A stretch of 64,000 nucleotides of DNA, taken from NCBI RefSeq assembly GCF_901538265.1, contig NZ_LR593886.1:2712843-2776842 (forward strand). The letters are read 5' to 3'. A program made the translations under genes and the position numbers. Source of the stretch: Gemmata massiliana. GTDB lineage: Bacteria > Planctomycetota > Planctomycetia > Gemmatales > Gemmataceae. The notes under the pieces were generated by a model. The model saw only the letters and a program-made list of their open reading frames with translations. It searched no databases and was not told the origin of the DNA. Positions within the stretch are counted from its first letter, which is position 1, and each line of letters opens with the position of its first letter. Shown in pieces: positions 31,370-43,033 of the stretch.

Positions 31370-32461
31370 ATGTCCGACGAGAAGGCGCTGCTCGCGATCT
31401 GGGAACACCCGCACGACGACACCGTGCGCCTGATCTACGCGGACTGGCTCCAGGAAAACGGCCGACCCGCGCGCGCCGAATTCATCCGGCTCCAGTGCGA
31501 TCGCGCGCGGCTTACCTCTTGGGACGATCGGTCACGTGAGCTGGATGCAGCGGTGACGGTTCTAAATAATCGCCATTGGGAGACGTGGGGGGCTTCAATC
31601 CCTCAGCGGTACCGCGGTGGGTTCGATCGGGGATTTCCGTTTGGCAGGATGCGAGCATCTGGGCAGCGATTCGCACGCGCTGATCCCGCTTTGATTAGTC
31701 TTGCAGTTCTTTGGCGTCTTTCGTCTACTCAACTCACGCGTGGGTGGACGAAGGCTGTTGAGAGCTCCAACTTTGTCCGAGTCGCGGAGATTGACGCATC
31801 TGGTACCGCGTTTACCGCAAGCCGCGTTCAGCGCGTGGCCGATTCCCAGAACGCTTATCACCTCAAACGCGTTCAGTTTCAGTTCTGCGGCCTCAATGAT
31901 CGAGCCGGGATCGCGTTCATGCAATCCCCGCACCTCCGATACCTCGACGTGTTGGGATTGGGCGCAAACAAATTAACCGACGCGACCGTAACCGCAATGA
32001 AAGGTGCGTGTTTCGCGGCCACGTTGCGAGTATTACAATTGGGCGGAAATCAGATCGGTTCGGATGGTGCCCGAACTCTTGCGAGCGGAGCATTCGCCAA
32101 CTTGGTCGAACTGGATTTATCCGGGTGTGAGCTTGGAGATACGGGTATCCGTGAACTGACCAGAGGTTCGGGCCTCCCCCGCCTCCGTTATTTGGGGCTT
32201 CGTTACGTGGGGATGTCCGATGTGGGGCTTGCCGATTTGGTCGGCTGGTCCGGGTTGGCCGGTGTAAAATCACTTGATCTCAGCGGCAACTCGATCACCC
32301 CGGCTTCGGTGACGCCCTTGCTCGATTCACCCCATTTGGCGGGTGTGCGCCGGTGTCAGATCGATCTTTCGGAAACGCCACTCGAAACGAACCCACGAAT
32401 CCGGGCGGTACTGCGGGAACAATTTCACCACGTAGTATTCGATCCCCGGATTCGTGACTGA
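31370..32461 (+). CDS. TIGR02996 domain protein with leucine-rich repeats
   Basis: 363 residues. The first 45 residues are the TIGR02996 companion motif (ALLAIWEHPHDDTVRLIYAD then WLQENGRPARAEFIRLQ). The rest forms leucine-rich repeats of the ribonuclease-inhibitor style, for example HLRYLDVLGLGANKLTDATV, VLQLGGNQIGSDGARTLASG and LVELDLSGCELGDTGIREL. No signal peptide is present, so it should be cytosolic and bind proteins. The segment 31560-32300 uses more A and T than its neighbours. It converges on sdhB with 16 bases between stops. Family function is unknown. Confidence 0.85.
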   Translation: MSDEKALLAIWEHPHDDTVRLIYADWLQENGRPARAEFIRLQCDRARLTSWDDRSRELDAAVTVLNNRHWETWGASIPQRYRGGFDRGFPFGRMRASGQRFARADPALISLAVLWRLSSTQLTRGWTKAVESSNFVRVAEIDASGTAFTASRVQRVADSQNAYHLKRVQFQFCGLNDRAGIAFMQSPHLRYLDVLGLGANKLTDATVTAMKGACFAATLRVLQLGGNQIGSDGARTLASGAFANLVELDLSGCELGDTGIRELTRGSGLPRLRYLGLRYVGMSDVGLADLVGWSGLAGVKSLDLSGNSITPASVTPLLDSPHLAGVRRCQIDLSETPLETNPRIRAVLREQFHHVVFDPRIRD

Positions 32462-36599: not shown

Positions 36600-36736
36600 C
36601 GGCGCACGGCGAAAACAGTGGTTCGCCGCGCGAAGCGGTCACGCCGAAACGGTTCTATCTGCACTGAAAGAGCGGGGACTTATAGGCGGGGCGCCGGGCG
36701 AATCAAGGCGGACTGTGCGGCGCGGACGAGCGCACC

Positions 36737-36750
36737 TGCGAACGTTCGCA
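36737..36750. promoter_or_regulatory. 14-bp perfect palindrome, possible operator
   Basis: TGCGAACGTTCGCA lies in the 206-base gap between the divergent LptD-like gene and the beta-CASP nuclease. It is perfectly symmetric. No regulator can be named; the site may bind a dimeric repressor. Confidence 0.35.
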
Positions 36751-36805
36751 ACGTCACATCGGCCATCGGGTTTGTGCTCGTCGCCCCGCGGGTTAGAATG
36801 GGTGA

Positions 36806-38233
36806 ATGAAACCCACCAGCACACCATCGCCGAACGCCGATCCCACGCTCACGTTCTGGGGCGCGGCCGGCGGCGTCACCGGGTCGATGCACCTCATTGA
36901 GGCCGGGAACCACAAGATCCTGCTCGACTGCGGGTTGCACCAGGGCCGGCGCGAGGAGGCGCGCCAGCGGAACGGGCACTTCCCGTTCCACCCCACCCAG
37001 ATCGACGCGGTCATCGTCAGCCACGCCCACATCGACCACTGCGGTAACCTGCCCACGCTCATCCGGCAGGGGTTCGACGGCCCCATTTACTGCACCCCGC
37101 CGACGCGCGACCTGCTCCGGGTCATGCTCGCGGATTCCGCGAAGATCCAGGAAGAGGACGCGGCCCACATCAACATCGCCCGCAACTATGCGGAGCCGTG
37201 GGTCCAGCCGCTGTACACGGTCATTGATGTGGAGAAGGTGTTCGGTCGGCTCGTTTCGGTCCCCTACGGGCGCGACACGGACGTCACGAAGACCGTGCGC
37301 TTCCGGTTCATCGAAGCGGGGCACGTGCTCGGGTCCGCGATGGTGTACGTCACCGTGGCCGCGCCCGACCGCGACCGGACGCTCACGTTCAGCGGGGACA
37401 TGGGGCGCCGGGGGTTACCCATTTTGAAACCGACCGGGACGGTCCCGCCGGCCGACGTGCTGGTGTGCGAGAGCACCTACGGGAACCGCACGCACCGCTC
37501 GTTCGCGGAAACGGTCGAGAGGCTCTACGCCACGATCCGTGACACCGTGGACCGCGGCGGAAAAGTGCTCATCCCGGCGTTCAGTTTGGGGCGCACGCAG
37601 CTCATCATCCACATCCTGCAACAAGGATTGCGCGAGCGGAAGCTCCCGGAGATCCCGGTTTACGTCGACAGCCCGCTCGCGTCGGAAGTCGCGGCGGTGT
37701 ACCGGGCGCACCCGAACAGCTTGTCCGACGAGATCGCCCAGGCGCTGCGCGAGGGGCACGGCTTACTCGGCGGGGACGGCGTGACTTACGTGCGCGACTT
37801 CGAGCAGAGCACGATTCTCGCCACGCGCCCGGGACCGAGCGTCATCATCGCGTCGAGCGGCATGTGCGACGCGGGGCGCATCCAGCAGCACCTGAAGCAG
37901 CTCGTGGACGACCCGCGCTGCACGATCATCCTCGTGAGCTACCAGGCGTCGGGTACGGTGGGGCGCAGGCTCCTCGACCCGAAGCCGACGGTGCGGTTCC
38001 AGGGGCGCGACTGGAACAAGTGGATCGACGTGGTCCACCTGGACGGCTTCAGCGGGCACGCGGACAAGAACGACTTCCTCGCGTACTTGGAACCGCTCGC
38101 GGGTAAAGTCGGGAAGGTGCGATTAATTCACGGCGAGCACGAACAGGCCGACGCACTGGCCGCCACGCTCCGCGACGCGGGTTTCGACGACGTGGGCGTT
38201 CCCGCACCCGGTGACCGCGTCGCGATCGGGTGA
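36806..38233 (+). CDS. Metallo-beta-lactamase/beta-CASP RNA-processing nuclease
   Basis: 475 residues. The metal motif SHAHIDHCG has His73, His75, Asp77 and His78, and the aspartate-rich LDCGLHQG motif lies upstream. The beta-CASP insert has DSPLASEVAAVYR and later SSGMCDAGRIQQHLKQL. The C-terminal motif GFSGHADKNDF closes the active site. This is the YSH1/CPSF-73-like branch of RNA nucleases and exonucleases, as found in bacteria and archaea. It probably processes or degrades RNA in the cytosol. It starts divergently from the LptD-like gene and stands 55 bases before the TIGR02996 array. Confidence 0.93.
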   Translation: MKPTSTPSPNADPTLTFWGAAGGVTGSMHLIEAGNHKILLDCGLHQGRREEARQRNGHFPFHPTQIDAVIVSHAHIDHCGNLPTLIRQGFDGPIYCTPPTRDLLRVMLADSAKIQEEDAAHINIARNYAEPWVQPLYTVIDVEKVFGRLVSVPYGRDTDVTKTVRFRFIEAGHVLGSAMVYVTVAAPDRDRTLTFSGDMGRRGLPILKPTGTVPPADVLVCESTYGNRTHRSFAETVERLYATIRDTVDRGGKVLIPAFSLGRTQLIIHILQQGLRERKLPEIPVYVDSPLASEVAAVYRAHPNSLSDEIAQALREGHGLLGGDGVTYVRDFEQSTILATRPGPSVIIASSGMCDAGRIQQHLKQLVDDPRCTIILVSYQASGTVGRRLLDPKPTVRFQGRDWNKWIDVVHLDGFSGHADKNDFLAYLEPLAGKVGKVRLIHGEHEQADALAATLRDAGFDDVGVPAPGDRVAIG

Positions 38234-38288
38234 GCGCCGGGCTTCGCGCCAAGTGAACCCGAACCGGGTGCGCAACTGACACTCCGCC

Positions 38289-38891
38289 ATGACACCGGAC
38301 AATCCGTTCTTGCGCGCGCTGCTCGCAGATCCGGAGGACGACACGCTCCGGCTCGCGATGGCCGATTGGTTCGACGAAAACGACCAGCCGGCGCGGGCCG
38401 AGTTCGTGCGCGTCCAGGTCGAACTGGCGCACGGGGCGGTCGACGGCGCCCGGCTCCGGTACCTCGAACGGCGCCAGCGGGACTTACTGATCGCTCACGA
38501 CACCGAATGGGTGGCCCCGCTCGCGAAGGTGCTGAGGTGCAGACCGGGGCAATGGGGCGGGTGGGTGTTTCGGCGCGGGTTCGCCGAGTATTTCAATGTG
38601 CCCGCCGCAGTCATTACCAAGTACGGCGACAAACTCGCGCGGCTCACGCCGATTCGTGAGTTGTTCCTGCGCCCCGTGAACGCAACTGCCATTATGGACC
38701 TGTGCGTGCGCCCGTGGTTCGCGTCGGTCACGCACCTCTATCTCCACGATCTGCAAATAACGGACGCCGTCGCGACGGCGCTGCTCGATAGCCCCCACAC
38801 GGGGCGCCTGCGCGTGCTGCAATTCCGCGCGAGCGAGCTGTCCCCGGTCACCGAGCGGGTGTTCTGGTCGCGGTTCCCGGTGCCCTCGTGA
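38289..38891 (+). CDS. TIGR02996 domain protein (array gene 1)
   Basis: 200 residues. The N-terminal companion motif is FLRALLADPEDDTLRLAMAD then WFDENDQPARAEFVRVQ. The remaining 150 residues have weak repeat character: a WVFRRGFAEYF turn, LTPIRELFLRPV and a short strand-turn unit near VTHLYLHDLQITDAVATALL that looks like a decayed leucine-rich repeat. It lacks a signal peptide or membrane helix. First of four adjacent paralogues, it lies 22 bases from the next. Function unknown. Confidence 0.85.
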   Translation: MTPDNPFLRALLADPEDDTLRLAMADWFDENDQPARAEFVRVQVELAHGAVDGARLRYLERRQRDLLIAHDTEWVAPLAKVLRCRPGQWGGWVFRRGFAEYFNVPAAVITKYGDKLARLTPIRELFLRPVNATAIMDLCVRPWFASVTHLYLHDLQITDAVATALLDSPHTGRLRVLQFRASELSPVTERVFWSRFPVPS

Positions 38892-38913
38892 CTCATTACC
38901 ATCGGACGATCTG

Positions 38914-39675
38914 ATGAACGACCACGACGCGCTACTGCACGCGATCGGCGAGCACCCGGAAGAAGACACCCCGCGGCTCATGTTCGCCGACTGGCTCGAA
39001 GAGAACGGGCAGCCCGAACGCGCCGACTTCGCGCGCAACCAGATCGAGTTAACCCGGTCCGAACTGACGCCCGCGGAGCGCCACCCACTCGTCAAGAAGA
39101 ACGTCTATTACCTCAATAACTGGGTTCCGCACTGGAAAGCGCAGCTCCCACGAATCGATGGCATCGAGTGGGGCGACTTCAACCGCGGGCTGATCGAGGA
39201 GGTGCAAACCAGTTCGATCGAGCGGTTGATCGATCGGGCCGCAGATGTCTTTACGGTTCCCGGGATTCACATCCTGCGCGTCGGGTGGTTGGGGAACTAT
39301 CCGACGCGCCTATCGGAACTGGCGCGCGTTTCGGAACTGTCCCGGCTCCGGGCGCTGCGACTCGTTGCGTCCCGAGCCAATGCCGAAGACCTGAGCGTGA
39401 TCCTGAGTTCGGGCCACTTGCGGCGGTTGAATGCGCTCGACCTGCACGGGAACTACGCCAACGATGCAGTAGCCGGTGACATTGCGGACGGGCGGTTCGG
39501 GAACCTCACAGAGCTGTGGCTCGGATCGAACCAGATCGGCGCCCGTGGCGCACGGGCGCTGGCCGCGTCGCCGCACTTGGCGGAACTTCGGTTCCTCGAT
39601 CTCCGCAACAATACGATTGACCACGCGGGGCGTTCTACACTCCGGAGCCGGTTCGGGTCCAAAGTGAAGCTGTAA
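38914..39675 (+). CDS. TIGR02996/LRR protein (array gene 2)
   Basis: 253 residues. The companion motif is ALLHAIGEHPEEDTPRLMFAD then WLEENGQPERADFARNQ. Leucine-rich repeats fill the rest, for example LSRLRALRLVASRANAEDLS, LRRLNALDLHGNYANDAVAG, LTELWLGSNQIGARGARALA and LAELRFLDLRNNTIDH. The DFNRGLIEEV turn after the motif is shared with the other copies. It overlaps no gene and lies 11 bases before the next copy, so the array is likely cotranscribed. Function unknown. Confidence 0.87.
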   Translation: MNDHDALLHAIGEHPEEDTPRLMFADWLEENGQPERADFARNQIELTRSELTPAERHPLVKKNVYYLNNWVPHWKAQLPRIDGIEWGDFNRGLIEEVQTSSIERLIDRAADVFTVPGIHILRVGWLGNYPTRLSELARVSELSRLRALRLVASRANAEDLSVILSSGHLRRLNALDLHGNYANDAVAGDIADGRFGNLTELWLGSNQIGARGARALAASPHLAELRFLDLRNNTIDHAGRSTLRSRFGSKVKL

Positions 39676-39686
39676 CCGGGCACCCA

Positions 39687-40439
39687 ATGACCGACACGGA
39701 AGCCGCCCTCTTGCGGGCCATAGTCGCGAACCCGGACGAGGACACGCCGCGGCTCGTCTACGCGGACTACCTCGACGAATCGGGGGAGCCGTCGCGCGCC
39801 GCTCGCGCGGAGTTCATCCGCCTGCATGTCCGCACGAACCCGCTCCCGCTCGACCACCCGGACCGGAAAGTCGCGGGCCAGCGCATCGACCAGTTGCTCT
39901 CCGCGTGGGACACGGTGTGGCAGTACGAAATGCCGCCGGGGTATAAGGCGTTCGCCCCTCAGCGGCGCGGGTTCGCGTACCGCGGGATGCTCACCGCGTC
40001 GCAGGCGGGAGAATCGGACGATCCGCGTGCGCACCTGCTCGAGTACCTGGAACTGGTGCCCGACGTGTCCGGGCGCCGGTTGCTCGAAATCGTGAAACAG
40101 CCGGCCTTCACGCGGGTGAAAACGCTCATTGTGCGCGGGGACCGGTTGCTCGGCTGGGCCGGGGCCTACGCGCTCGCCGGCGGTTCGTACCCGCGACTGG
40201 AGCGCCTCGTTCTCACGCGGCAGGGAATCGGGAACATCGGGCTGCGTGCGCTGTGCGAATCGTGGGGCTTCCCCCAATTGCGCGAGCTCGATCTGCGCAA
40301 CAACGACATTACCGACGACGGCGCGGCCGCGCTGTCCGGATCTGGGCTTCACGTCAAAGTGCGCCGATTCGACCTGTCGGAGAACCCGATCAGCCGGGAA
40401 CTGTTCATTCGCATTCAGACCGGGCGCTACGGTTCGTAG
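39687..40439 (+). CDS. TIGR02996/LRR protein (array gene 3)
   Basis: 250 residues. The companion motif is ALLRAIVANPDEDTPRLVYAD then YLDESGEPSRAARAEFIRLH, with four extra residues before RAEFIR relative to the other copies. After FAPQRRGFAYRG come repeat units ending in LERLVLTRQGIGNIGLRALC, LRELDLRNNDITDDGAAAL and RRFDLSENPISRELF. A GAACTG-type, not perfect, ribosome site precedes the start. It ends 144 bases before array gene 4, the largest gap inside the array. Function unknown. Confidence 0.86.
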   Translation: MTDTEAALLRAIVANPDEDTPRLVYADYLDESGEPSRAARAEFIRLHVRTNPLPLDHPDRKVAGQRIDQLLSAWDTVWQYEMPPGYKAFAPQRRGFAYRGMLTASQAGESDDPRAHLLEYLELVPDVSGRRLLEIVKQPAFTRVKTLIVRGDRLLGWAGAYALAGGSYPRLERLVLTRQGIGNIGLRALCESWGFPQLRELDLRNNDITDDGAAALSGSGLHVKVRRFDLSENPISRELFIRIQTGRYGS

Positions 40440-40583
40440 TTTGTGGGTCGGTAATTTCGGTCCGGCGCGAACTCGTTGGTACTTTCGCCGGTGCGATTGG
40501 TTCTGGAGGCGGGTGCTATCCGTTTAGAAGGTTATAGTGGAATAAGGTCTGAGCACATTTCTTGTGTAAGAACGCAGCACCCA

Positions 40584-41282
40584 ATGGACGACGAAGACGC
40601 ACTCCTGCGCGCGATCTGCGCGCACCCGGACGAAGACACTCCGCGGTTGGCGTTCGCCGACTGGCTCTCGGAGCGGGGTGGGGCTGTAAACACCGCCTGG
40701 GCAAACGGCATTCGCGCGCAGGTGTGGCTCGCGAGCGGATCGACCGATACGGCAGGCGTGCTGCAATCGCGTGTGTTCGAGTCGGCTTACGGGCTGGAAA
40801 AACTGCGCGAGCGGCTGGGGATCGACTGCGTCGGCGCGGACCAATGGGAGCGCGGGTTCCCGACGCAACTGGTCGGTGATTTTCCTGCCATGGCGAGTGT
40901 CTGGGAGCGCCTGGCCGACCGGGTTCCGTGCCGGGTGCTGCACCTGAGCAGCATGTCCGACGCCGCCGTCGCGGAGTTCGTCACGTGGCCCGCACTCGAC
41001 CGGCTGACGGAACTCGATTTGGGGGCGTGGTACAGTCCCGTGGGGACGTTTGGGGAGGTCGCGCTCCGGTGCGTGGCCGAGTGCCCGGCGCTGCGCGGGC
41101 TGAGGTCTCTGTTCATGGGGCCTCTCAATTTAACGAACGCAGGCGCGGCCGCGATCCTCAATTCGCCACACTTGTTCCGGTTGCAGCACCTCCAACTCCG
41201 GCGCACCCACGACAGCCCGAACCTTACGTGGTACACGGAGACGCGCCTCCGGGCCGGCTTCGGTGCGGACGTGGTGGTCTGA
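40584..41282 (+). CDS. TIGR02996 protein with decayed motif (array gene 4)
   Basis: 232 residues from the ATG at 40584. The companion motif begins as usual (ALLRAICAHPDEDTPRLAFAD then WLSERGG), but the second half that reads RAEFIRLQ in the others is VNTAWANGIRAQVW here, a diverged form. A DQWERGFPTQL turn and repeat-like strands follow (LDRLTELDLGAWYSPV, LRGLRSLFMGPLNLTNAGAAA, LQHLQLRR). The upstream gap to 40440 contains an A+T-richer stretch. It ends 66 bases before the metG start on the same strand. Function unknown. Confidence 0.8.
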   Translation: MDDEDALLRAICAHPDEDTPRLAFADWLSERGGAVNTAWANGIRAQVWLASGSTDTAGVLQSRVFESAYGLEKLRERLGIDCVGADQWERGFPTQLVGDFPAMASVWERLADRVPCRVLHLSSMSDAAVAEFVTWPALDRLTELDLGAWYSPVGTFGEVALRCVAECPALRGLRSLFMGPLNLTNAGAAAILNSPHLFRLQHLQLRRTHDSPNLTWYTETRLRAGFGADVVV

Positions 41283-41348
41283 ACCTGCTCCGCGCCGGTT
41301 GCGTCTGTAGAAAGGCTACATTGAGCCGTGCAGATGAAGGAGTTGACC

Positions 41349-42932
41349 GTGACGGACAAACCCCGCTGGTTCCAGACGACCGCAATCGACTACCCGAACA
41401 GCCGGCCGCACATCGGTACCGCGTTCGAGAAGCTCGGCGCCGACGTGCAGGCGCGGTACCGGCGCATGGAGGGGTTCGACGTCTTCTTCCTGATGGGCAA
41501 CGACGAGAACACGGTGAAGGTGTCGAAGCGCGCCGCCGAACTCGGCCAGGACACGCAGGCGTACTGCGACGACATGGCCCGTCAGTTCCGCGAGGTGTGG
41601 GCCGCGCTGGACATCAGCTACGACACGTTCGTGCAAACGAGCAGCGAGCGCCACAAACAGTGCTGCCGCAAGTTCATCCAGAAGGTGTACGACAACGGGC
41701 ACATCTATAAGGGGAGCTACGAGGGCTGGTACTGCGACGGGTGCGAGGAGTTCAAGAGCGACAAGGTCCGGGACGAGAACGCCGGGAACTGTCCGGTTCA
41801 CAAGCGCCCGCTTACTCGGCGGTCGGAACCGTGCTACCTGTTCCGGCTCTCCGCGTTCCAGGACCGGTTGCTGGCGCACTACAAGGAGAACCCGGACTTC
41901 ATCCAGCCGGAGAGCCGCCGGAACGAGATGATCTCGCTGATCGAGACGGAGGGGCTGCGCGACATCAACATCTCGCGGACGGGTGAAGATTGGGGTATTC
42001 GTATCCCGTTCGACCCGGAGTTCACCATCTACGTCTGGTTCGACGCGCTGCTCACGTACATCACCGGCATCGGGTACGGCGACGACGAAGCGACGTTCCG
42101 TAAGCACTGGCCGTGCGACACGCACTTTATCGGTAAGGACATTACCCGCTTCCACTGCGCGCTGTGGCCGGCGATGCTGTGGGCCGCGGGCGAGGAAGCC
42201 CCAAAGAAAGTATTCAGCCACGGGTTCGTGAACTTCGAGGGGAAGATCGGGAAATCGCGCGAGGAGGAGTTGCGAGCACGCGGGCTGGATTACCTTCTGG
42301 AACCGATGCTCATCATTCAGAGGTTTAGCGCGGAGGCGTTCCGTTACTACTTCATGAGGGAGTGCCCGTACCCGTCCGACGGTGAAATCAGCCCGGAACG
42401 GTTCATGGAGGTCTACAACTCCGAGCTAGCGAACAACCTCGGGAACCTGTTCTCCCGCGAGATGACCATCACGTGGAAGAACTTCGGCGGGGTGTTCGAC
42501 GGCACCGCGGGACAGGTGCCGGACCCGGTCGTACCCGGGTTGAATCTGGAGTTGTTTGTTGGGGAGGTGCGAGAGCACATTGAGGCGTGCCGGTACCACC
42601 TCGCGCTCCAGAAAATCGTGCAGGACTTCCTCACGCCGACGAACCAGTACCTCGAAGCGAACGCCCCGTGGAAACTGGTGAAGACGGACAAGGACGCGGC
42701 CAAGAAGGTGCTGTTCAACGCGGTGCAGTCGCTCCGCATCGCGAGCATCCTGCTGAAGCCGTTCATCCCCAAGAGCGCGGAGACGATCTACACGAGCTTC
42801 AACTTCCCGACCCCGTGGGCCGAAGTGAAGTACGCGGACGCGACCGCACTGAAGGCCCAACCCGATGACCTGCGGGTGACCGCGGAACTCGTGGACGGTA
42901 AGGTGAAGCCGCTGTTCCCGCGGATCGGCTGA
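41349..42932 (+). CDS. metG: Methionyl-tRNA synthetase
   Basis: 527 residues from the GTG at 41349. This start is chosen because AAGGAG at 41337-41342 lies 6 bases before it, while the ATG at 41334 has no such site. The HIGH motif is PHIGT at 20-24. The zinc knuckle region has YCDGCEEF and NCPVHK. The second catalytic motif, normally KMSKS, reads KIGKS at 299-303. The anticodon-binding helices follow (NNLGNLFSREM, PWKLVKTDKDAAKKVL), ending at PLFPRIG. The C-terminal tRNA-binding appendix is missing, so this is a short form. It charges tRNA-Met in the cytosol. It lies downstream of the TIGR02996 array. Confidence 0.93.
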   Translation: MTDKPRWFQTTAIDYPNSRPHIGTAFEKLGADVQARYRRMEGFDVFFLMGNDENTVKVSKRAAELGQDTQAYCDDMARQFREVWAALDISYDTFVQTSSERHKQCCRKFIQKVYDNGHIYKGSYEGWYCDGCEEFKSDKVRDENAGNCPVHKRPLTRRSEPCYLFRLSAFQDRLLAHYKENPDFIQPESRRNEMISLIETEGLRDINISRTGEDWGIRIPFDPEFTIYVWFDALLTYITGIGYGDDEATFRKHWPCDTHFIGKDITRFHCALWPAMLWAAGEEAPKKVFSHGFVNFEGKIGKSREEELRARGLDYLLEPMLIIQRFSAEAFRYYFMRECPYPSDGEISPERFMEVYNSELANNLGNLFSREMTITWKNFGGVFDGTAGQVPDPVVPGLNLELFVGEVREHIEACRYHLALQKIVQDFLTPTNQYLEANAPWKLVKTDKDAAKKVLFNAVQSLRIASILLKPFIPKSAETIYTSFNFPTPWAEVKYADATALKAQPDDLRVTAELVDGKVKPLFPRIG

Positions 42933-42949
42933 GGCGCACGTTACAAGAA

Positions 42950-43033
42950 GTCGGCCCCTCCGGGATGAAGACAGGACGTTCCTGTTCTTCGCCCCGGAGG
43001 GGCCGACTGACGTAGCACAGGGCGGAAGCCCTG
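42950..43033. terminator. Two hairpins between convergent metG and DJ-1 genes
   Basis: A perfect 15-bp stem (42950-42964 with 42993-43007) encloses a second near-perfect stem (GAAGACAGGA with TCCTGTTCTTC). A smaller hairpin CAGGGC-GGAA-GCCCTG follows at 43018-43033. They fill the gap between the two stops and probably end both transcripts, though without T runs. Confidence 0.65.

Follow-up and report, generated by a model that had tools for sequence, protein, structure and literature searches.

Conserved heads and exchanged-looking tails in the TIGR02996 protein family of Gemmata massiliana

How proteins that begin with the same short segment come to differ in what follows it is the question raised by a 64,000-nucleotide stretch of the Gemmata massiliana genome (contig NZ_LR593886.1, positions 2,712,843 to 2,776,842), referred to here as the window. 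Its plus strand carries a head-to-tail array of four genes at 38289..38891 (200 aa), 38914..39675 (253 aa), 39687..40439 (250 aa) and 40584..41282 (232 aa), and a fifth gene at 31370..32461 (363 aa); each is named below by its first position. The original prediction held that all five share a head, which in 31370 spans residues 3-46, and that this head is a docking module in front of a diversifying recognition surface. The shared head was confirmed: TIGR02996 (NCBIfam rpt_mate_G_obs; curated cut-off 29.05 bits) matched 5/5 window proteins with 59.3-76.2 bits, and the open reading frames (ORFs), starts, stops and gaps (22, 11 and 144 bp) of the array agreed with those first given, all gene calls and starts being mechanical ones made in this analysis. 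Leucine-rich repeat (LRR) tails with Pfam matches follow the head in 31370, 38914 and 39687. No Pfam LRR match was obtained at E ≤ 1 in 38289 or 40584; the tails of these two align to other tails better than shuffled sequence does (Z 2.9-7.2), and the short tail of 38289 can be aligned with LRR tails. Scores for the STM4015 family (NF038076; cut-off 275 bits) stayed at 18.6-41.1 bits in the four matching proteins.

The genome as a whole contains 92 TIGR02996 matches in 90 ORFs, 91 of them above the cut-off and one just under it, and the main statistic rests on one close species pair, this genome and its sister G009. In the syntenic blocks of the pair lie 57 of the 90 genes, of which 54 have a partner and 51 have at least 100 aligned tail codons. 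Heads were at least 0.84 identical in 54/54 syntenic pairs, with a maximum synonymous divergence (dS) of 0.67. As originally predicted, the tail proved the more variable part, its identity falling below that of the head in 40/51 of these pairs and in 62/62 ortholog pairs of the four array groups. Moreover, nine of the 51 tails combined an amino acid identity below 0.7 with a dS above 0.8 behind heads at least 0.84 identical. These nine loci, named by contig position, are 394014, 1463689, 1993049, 2285188, 2744212 (31370 of the window), 2751756 (38914), 4385099, 7376325 and 9307448, and their flanking blocks are 90-95% identical at the nucleotide level, a figure that for 2751756 and 4385099 includes the gene, as the block runs through it. 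Tails that differ amid a conserved head and conserved flanks were thus observed directly. As controls we took 209 other syntenic ORFs. For 75 of these the first 44 codons had no counterpart at 84% identity, and they were left out; among the 134 kept, a single one showed the same pattern (9/51 against 1/134, p = 4e-5). An alignment-coverage test on a looser gene set gave 8/52 against 2/196 (p = 7.5e-5), the eight including the truncated 8438528 and excluding 2751756 and 4385099.

Clear nucleotide junctions were found in eight genes, namely seven of the nine and 8438528. In 5/8 the similarity breaks off where the head ends on its 3' side (+126 to +142), whereas the other three lose it at +235, +253 and +390; in four of the eight it resumes no more than 25 bp from the stop codon. 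Gene 31370, whose tail is unlike that of the syntenic G009 gene, belongs to these four: the segment from the end of its head to the stop codon (31505..32461, plus strand) has no nucleotide similarity to G009 and is bordered by blocks 87.0% and 96.7% identical to it. In 38914 the tail is hyperdivergent, with a dS of 1.19 from residue 101 onwards and of 0.16 in the head, and the branches of the own and G009 copies lengthen from 0.02-0.03 in head plus spacer to 0.39-0.46 in the tail. Among the loci included in a search for the closest tails, those of 394014, 2285188, 2751756, 4385099 and 7376325 find their best match in the syntenic counterpart, at 33-65% identity, as hyperdivergent alleles would. 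Five of the nine replaced tails fall in the LRR cluster and four outside it, so replacement is not peculiar to LRR tails; the replaced pair at 1993049 has a SUKH-1 tail on both sides. A further LRR gene of the family, at G000:C1:2711683-2712711, ends about 130 bp before window position 1, and its tail is 97% identical in G009.

The pattern is seen across the genus at 7376325, a gene matched in 19/19 genus genomes, with synteny shown for G009. When the 18 other copies were compared with the own one (a duplicate G003 row for the same ORF being dropped), heads were 0.70-0.98, C-termini 0.64-0.91 and middles 0.26-0.52 identical. The own copy is closer to those of G002, G018, G003 and G004 (66-70%) than to that of the sister G009 (60%). 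The middles fall into one class with the own copy, G002, G004, G018 and G003, a second with G016, G011, G012, G001 and G017, a third with G013, G008 and G005, and six singletons including G009. The protein of 7376325 has a conserved head and C-terminus around a hypervariable middle, and the allele classes of this middle do not follow the pairing of the sister genomes. In approximately unbiased (AU) tests the middle rejected a clade of the own and G009 copies (p = 0.0002), whereas the ends, whose tree is mostly unresolved, did not (p = 0.415).

What the heads and tails look like was read directly from AlphaFold2 (AF2) models of 38914 (predicted local distance difference test score, pLDDT, 95.9; predicted template modelling score, pTM, 0.90) and 31370 (89.4 and 0.88). 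In both models three head helices, at residues 3-13, 19-30 and 34-46 in 38914, are followed by a longer helix, by strands around an RGF motif and then by an LRR solenoid. Residues 93-253 of the 38914 model superimpose on ribonuclease inhibitor (2bex_A) with Z 16.6 and a root mean square deviation of 2.5 over 159 aligned residues, and the closest folds to its LRR part are ribonuclease inhibitor, NOD2 and NLRP3 (Z 16.6, 16.1 and 16.1). As modelled, the 38914 tail is an LRR solenoid, of the ribonuclease-inhibitor (RI) or the cysteine-containing (CC) subclass. Since the fold-alignment rows cover mainly model residues 78-253, they support no claim about the fold of the head. In sequence-profile searches TPR_15 matched 8/28 heads at E ≤ 1 (best 5.7e-4), and the tetratricopeptide repeat (TPR) protein PA4667 of the PDB was matched by a head at E 0.007, which weakly suggests a TPR-like head of three helices; no F-box was among the 14 Pfam families matched by the 28 heads at that threshold.

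An RGF-type motif lies 75-125 residues from the head start in 45/49 members of the largest tail cluster as against 8/41 others. Of these 41, 37 were scanned as a set: two carry SMI1_KNR4 (SUKH-1), one carries DUF1963 and most have no match, while one further member outside the LRR cluster has HEAT repeats. By the mechanical start calls the head is preceded by an N-terminal extension in five ORFs, one of which, G000:C1:1927074-1928945 (minus strand), belongs to the largest tail cluster and encodes an N-terminal SWIM zinc finger. Two heads stand in tandem, 36 residues apart, in the proteins of G000:C1:4492979-4494010 and G000:C1:8981309-8982088, which fits a repeat unit. In another place the head is split between two frames, G000:C1:994400-994489 (minus strand) and the overlapping ORF 993622-994410, with 29 aa in the first and the RAEFIRAQ half in the other; the first half is also 29 aa long in G009, and the split reflects either an old frameshift common to both genomes or a site of recoding.

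The family thus comprises about ninety proteins with one small helical head and differing, mostly binding-type tail domains. Head-to-tail runs with gaps of at most 144 bp hold 17/90 ORFs, in two runs of four (the second at 8563109-8568292), one of three and three pairs. TIGR02996 was found in 18/18 genus-mates (14 to 96 matches each) and in 31/393 genomes of a phylum sample. In 18 further genomes of the family the count ranged from 0 to 48 matches, and it was zero in all seven genomes taken from a different family of the order. Heads of different loci can be close: 36/3741 head pairs have a dS below 0.5, some with unrelated tails (213047 and 7095110 have a head dS of 0.19 and a tail identity of 0.27). 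These values hint at homogenisation of heads between paralogs, and the signal is suggestive only, because codon bias lowers dS. A two-gene unit, in which a 137-aa ORF overlaps a TIGR02996 gene by 4 bp, occurs twice (G000:C1, 8202221-8203436 and 8978978-8979725), and the head dS of 0.03 between the two marks a recent long-distance duplication. The NCBIfam entry for TIGR02996, as returned, names no function, a full-text literature search on the accession or on 'repeat-companion domain' found no paper, and the part of PMC8567305 available to us contains no occurrence of leucine, LRR or TIGR. The proposed exchange of tails and the modelled fold are additions of this analysis to a known domain.

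The window array itself stands between a beta-CASP metallo-hydrolase gene (36806..38233, plus strand) and the methionyl-tRNA synthetase gene metG (41328..42932, plus strand). This place, beside one or both flanking genes, was read in 14 other genus genomes (all but G003, G007, G015 and G018). The original prediction had named an array absent from close relatives and unexpressed as a point that would tell against it; in fact 11 of the 14 have family members next to at least one of the two flanking genes, either adjoining it or about 3 kb away at most (G009, G012, G001, G014, G016, G002, G013, G005, G006, G010 and G004). The place is without heads in G017 and G011, whose two flanking genes are near each other, and so is the metG side in G008. 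Orthologs were identified directly for 38289 in 8 other genus genomes (about 283 bp of the gene are missing from G009), for 38914 in 4 (none was found in G012), for 39687 in G009 and G012, with a 35-residue head remnant in G001, and for 40584 in six (G009, G016, G010, G006, G001 and G012). As every one of the four falls into an ortholog group of its own, the copies are old and were unevenly lost, and the array is a set of four old members of separate groups that were retained between the beta-CASP gene and metG. Duplication in place, as a recent event, was accordingly not upheld: compared mutually, the five window proteins share 44-60% identity in heads and 22-32% in tails, and in other species separate orthologs exist for every gene of the array. 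Nor does 40584 carry a decayed motif as had been proposed; its WAxxIRxQ, where RAxFIRxQ is usual, is common to its six orthologs and is a conserved variant. A promoter and terminator scan of 36700-43000, which was given no weight, returned 1 promoter-like site where 0.7 were expected and 8 terminator-like sites where the expectation was 4.2. The beta-CASP hydrolase has its best NCBIfam matches in type VII CRISPR Cas14 (379 bits) and aCPSF1 (331 bits), well below both cut-offs.

The reading towards which we lean, with a little more confidence than doubt, is that TIGR02996 proteins are genus-wide modular adaptors with a constant head and a specificity tail that is exchanged by recombination at a minority of loci. 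A number of results speak against it. Most tails are conserved, 42/51 having an identity of at least 0.7 (median 0.93). In the 41 pairs with a tail identity of at least 0.75, exposed concave LRR positions were less often changed (27/585) than convex positions (92/1170; p = 0.012). When only the seven full-length cases were counted, the control comparison weakened to p = 0.0006, and the coverage test, with five, to p = 0.005; the G009 copies of 1463689 and 9307448 are much shorter than the own ones (192 and 170 aa against 326 and 324). Overall, the share of unaligned bases differs mildly, at 14.0% in tails, 5.2% in heads and 9.2% in other syntenic DNA. In the tree of the 7376325 middle only 3/16 inner branches carry a star and the branch leading to G009 is long, the AU test on the 38914 tail gave p = 0.188, and the 31370 tail has no near donor in the genus, its best match outside the own genome being 29% at the amino acid level among 19 genus genomes. 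The pair G017/G011, which at about 71-81% nucleotide identity over genes is too distant to serve as a replicate, showed no replaced tail in 12 comparable pairs (leaving aside L190/L196, where the partner ORF has 36 aa, and L208, which had no match). Finally, the conserved partner gene expected near the arrays did not appear: clustering of 306 neighbours yielded no recurrent gene, the largest groups having 8 and 6 members, and the four members of the group of 8 that were displayed have, by eye, prepilin-like N-termini.

These results also bear on the manner in which tails diversify. The original prediction had envisaged a diversifying recognition surface; diversification of such a face by point mutation was not supported, as the concave LRR face is quieter than the convex one and tail dN/dS is no higher than that of the head (among the 42 conserved pairs, medians of 0.15 in heads and 0.14 in tails, with no tail above 1). 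Point diversification of tails was rejected on that median, and positive selection on the concave face because the trend runs the opposite way. Diversification of the tails is instead read as segment replacement at a minority of loci, not as point tuning. That the family consists of ordinary fast-evolving paralogs without special exchange, the nine cases being decay, mis-pairing or chance, is highly improbable: the 42 ordinary tails and the short G009 copies would suit it, but the control tests, including the one confined to full-length cases, do not, and saturated dS next to background dS in head and flank is unexpected from selection alone. Exchange could also be mimicked if ancestral tandem copies were lost differentially: one lineage would have undergone a deletion from head to head and its sister would have lost the other copy, so that different tails stand behind the same head with no import. 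The varying content of the array among relatives and the 75-87% DNA identity over 85-126 bp between heads of different array genes agree with such losses; of the nine replaced genes, nevertheless, only 1463689 and 2751756 belong to head-to-tail runs in this genome and the other seven lie outside them, and in 7376325 the C-terminus behind the replaced middle is conserved while the middle itself falls into classes across the 19 genomes. We regard differential loss as quite unlikely.

The role of the head and of the tails can be construed in other ways as well. If the head were a mere N-terminal cap without a partner of its own, the family would be a collection of unrelated scaffolds. Its helices do continue directly into the spacer helix and the LRR in both models, and no partner gene recurs; yet the same head precedes SUKH-1 and HEAT tails, follows N-terminal extensions in five ORFs and is present twice in each of two proteins, which makes a cap unlikely. 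The tails might, on the other hand, form an orphan immunity repertoire in which LRR, SUKH and other domains neutralise the polymorphic toxins of neighbours, arrays being polyimmunity loci and exchange tracking toxin alleles. DUF1963 is linked to immunity, and it occurs once, beside two SUKH-1 tails, among the 37 non-LRR members, while the replaced pair at 1993049 has SUKH-1 on both sides. The portion of PMC3482391 available counts LRR among the immunity folds and as a component of polyimmunity loci, and it names SUKH as a major immunity superfamily. One LRR gene of the family (9099085-9100089, minus strand, within G000:C1:9094000-9107000) lies 327 bp behind an Rhs core (9101185-9101442, minus strand), a place expected for an immunity gene, and the gap holds, by eye, a hairpin-like repeat. 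Against this stand a search of the Rhs class, in which only 1/30 Rhs-core loci of the genus had a head gene in reach (17/30 show at least 700 bases past the Rhs stop), the genome G007 (82% complete) with 96 heads and no Rhs-core match, and the beta-CASP and metG flanks of the window genes. Rhs immunity as a general role was rejected on the 1/30 count. An immunity role for the family is possible but weak, because SUKH and DUF1963 tails are rare and a head gene stands at 1/30 Rhs-core loci, and we hold the full repertoire scenario to be rather improbable. A role as anti-phage defence proteins was set aside, as PADLOC profiles gave 0 families at E ≤ 0.001 for 27 members, the five window genes included.

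In the adaptor reading, a constant head of about 45 residues would be followed by a further helix, a strand pair with the RGF motif and a tail that binds a ligand and is usually an LRR solenoid of the ribonuclease-inhibitor type. The head, as the common element, may dock on a shared partner, the tail would set specificity by binding a ligand, and the proteins are probably cytoplasmic. Purifying selection of the ordinary kind acts on most tails. At a minority of loci the junctions and allele classes suggest that recombination has replaced the whole tail or the middle of it, in many cases with one of the junctions lying where the head ends on its 3' side; such exchange would produce allele classes that cut across species. 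Each tail probably retains its ligand until it is exchanged, since the concave LRR face is quieter where tails are conserved. A bolder version, in which head DNA at dozens of dispersed loci acts as a homology anchor and tails are swapped as cassettes between strains, species and perhaps loci, yielding allele classes of intracellular recognition for self/non-self or conflict, seems to us a tentative possibility.

Several known systems resemble this arrangement in part. The LRR of RipG4, a GALA protein, ranks second among Foldseek matches to the 38914 model. According to the accessible part of PMC2244805, proteins of Gemmata sp. Wa1-1 have GALA-type LRRs, GALA and GALA-like proteins (F-box plus LRR) likewise consist of a short N-terminal module followed by LRRs, and selection acts on the convex side of GALA LRRs, the more change-prone side there as in the Gemmata tails. 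Unlike them, the 28 Gemmata heads gave no F-box among their Pfam matches, by sequence profiles. Small genes that encode LRR or SUKH folds also stand in runs at the immunity loci of polymorphic toxins (PMC3482391, as far as available). The Gemmata family differs from these in its one shared head, its many dispersed copies and its presence at 1/30 Rhs-core loci. In the type I restriction subunit HsdS and in myxobacterial TraA, constant segments flank exchangeable specificity segments. Constant and, on our reading, exchangeable parts are combined likewise in the Gemmata family, whereas the proteins are unrelated and in Gemmata about 90 paralogs share one constant module.

With these results, a family whose model names no function becomes testable. 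Some 90 loci and a sister genome allow replaced and unreplaced loci to be compared, and 7376325, with its discrete middle classes in 19/19 genus genomes, is a ready experimental target. Specificity exchange occurs in HsdS, in allorecognition and in immune-receptor families, and if cassette exchange under a constant head is true, Gemmata would offer a bacterial parallel to these. With about one compared locus in six bearing an exchanged-looking tail, the family may serve as a natural system for how bacteria diversify recognition proteins.

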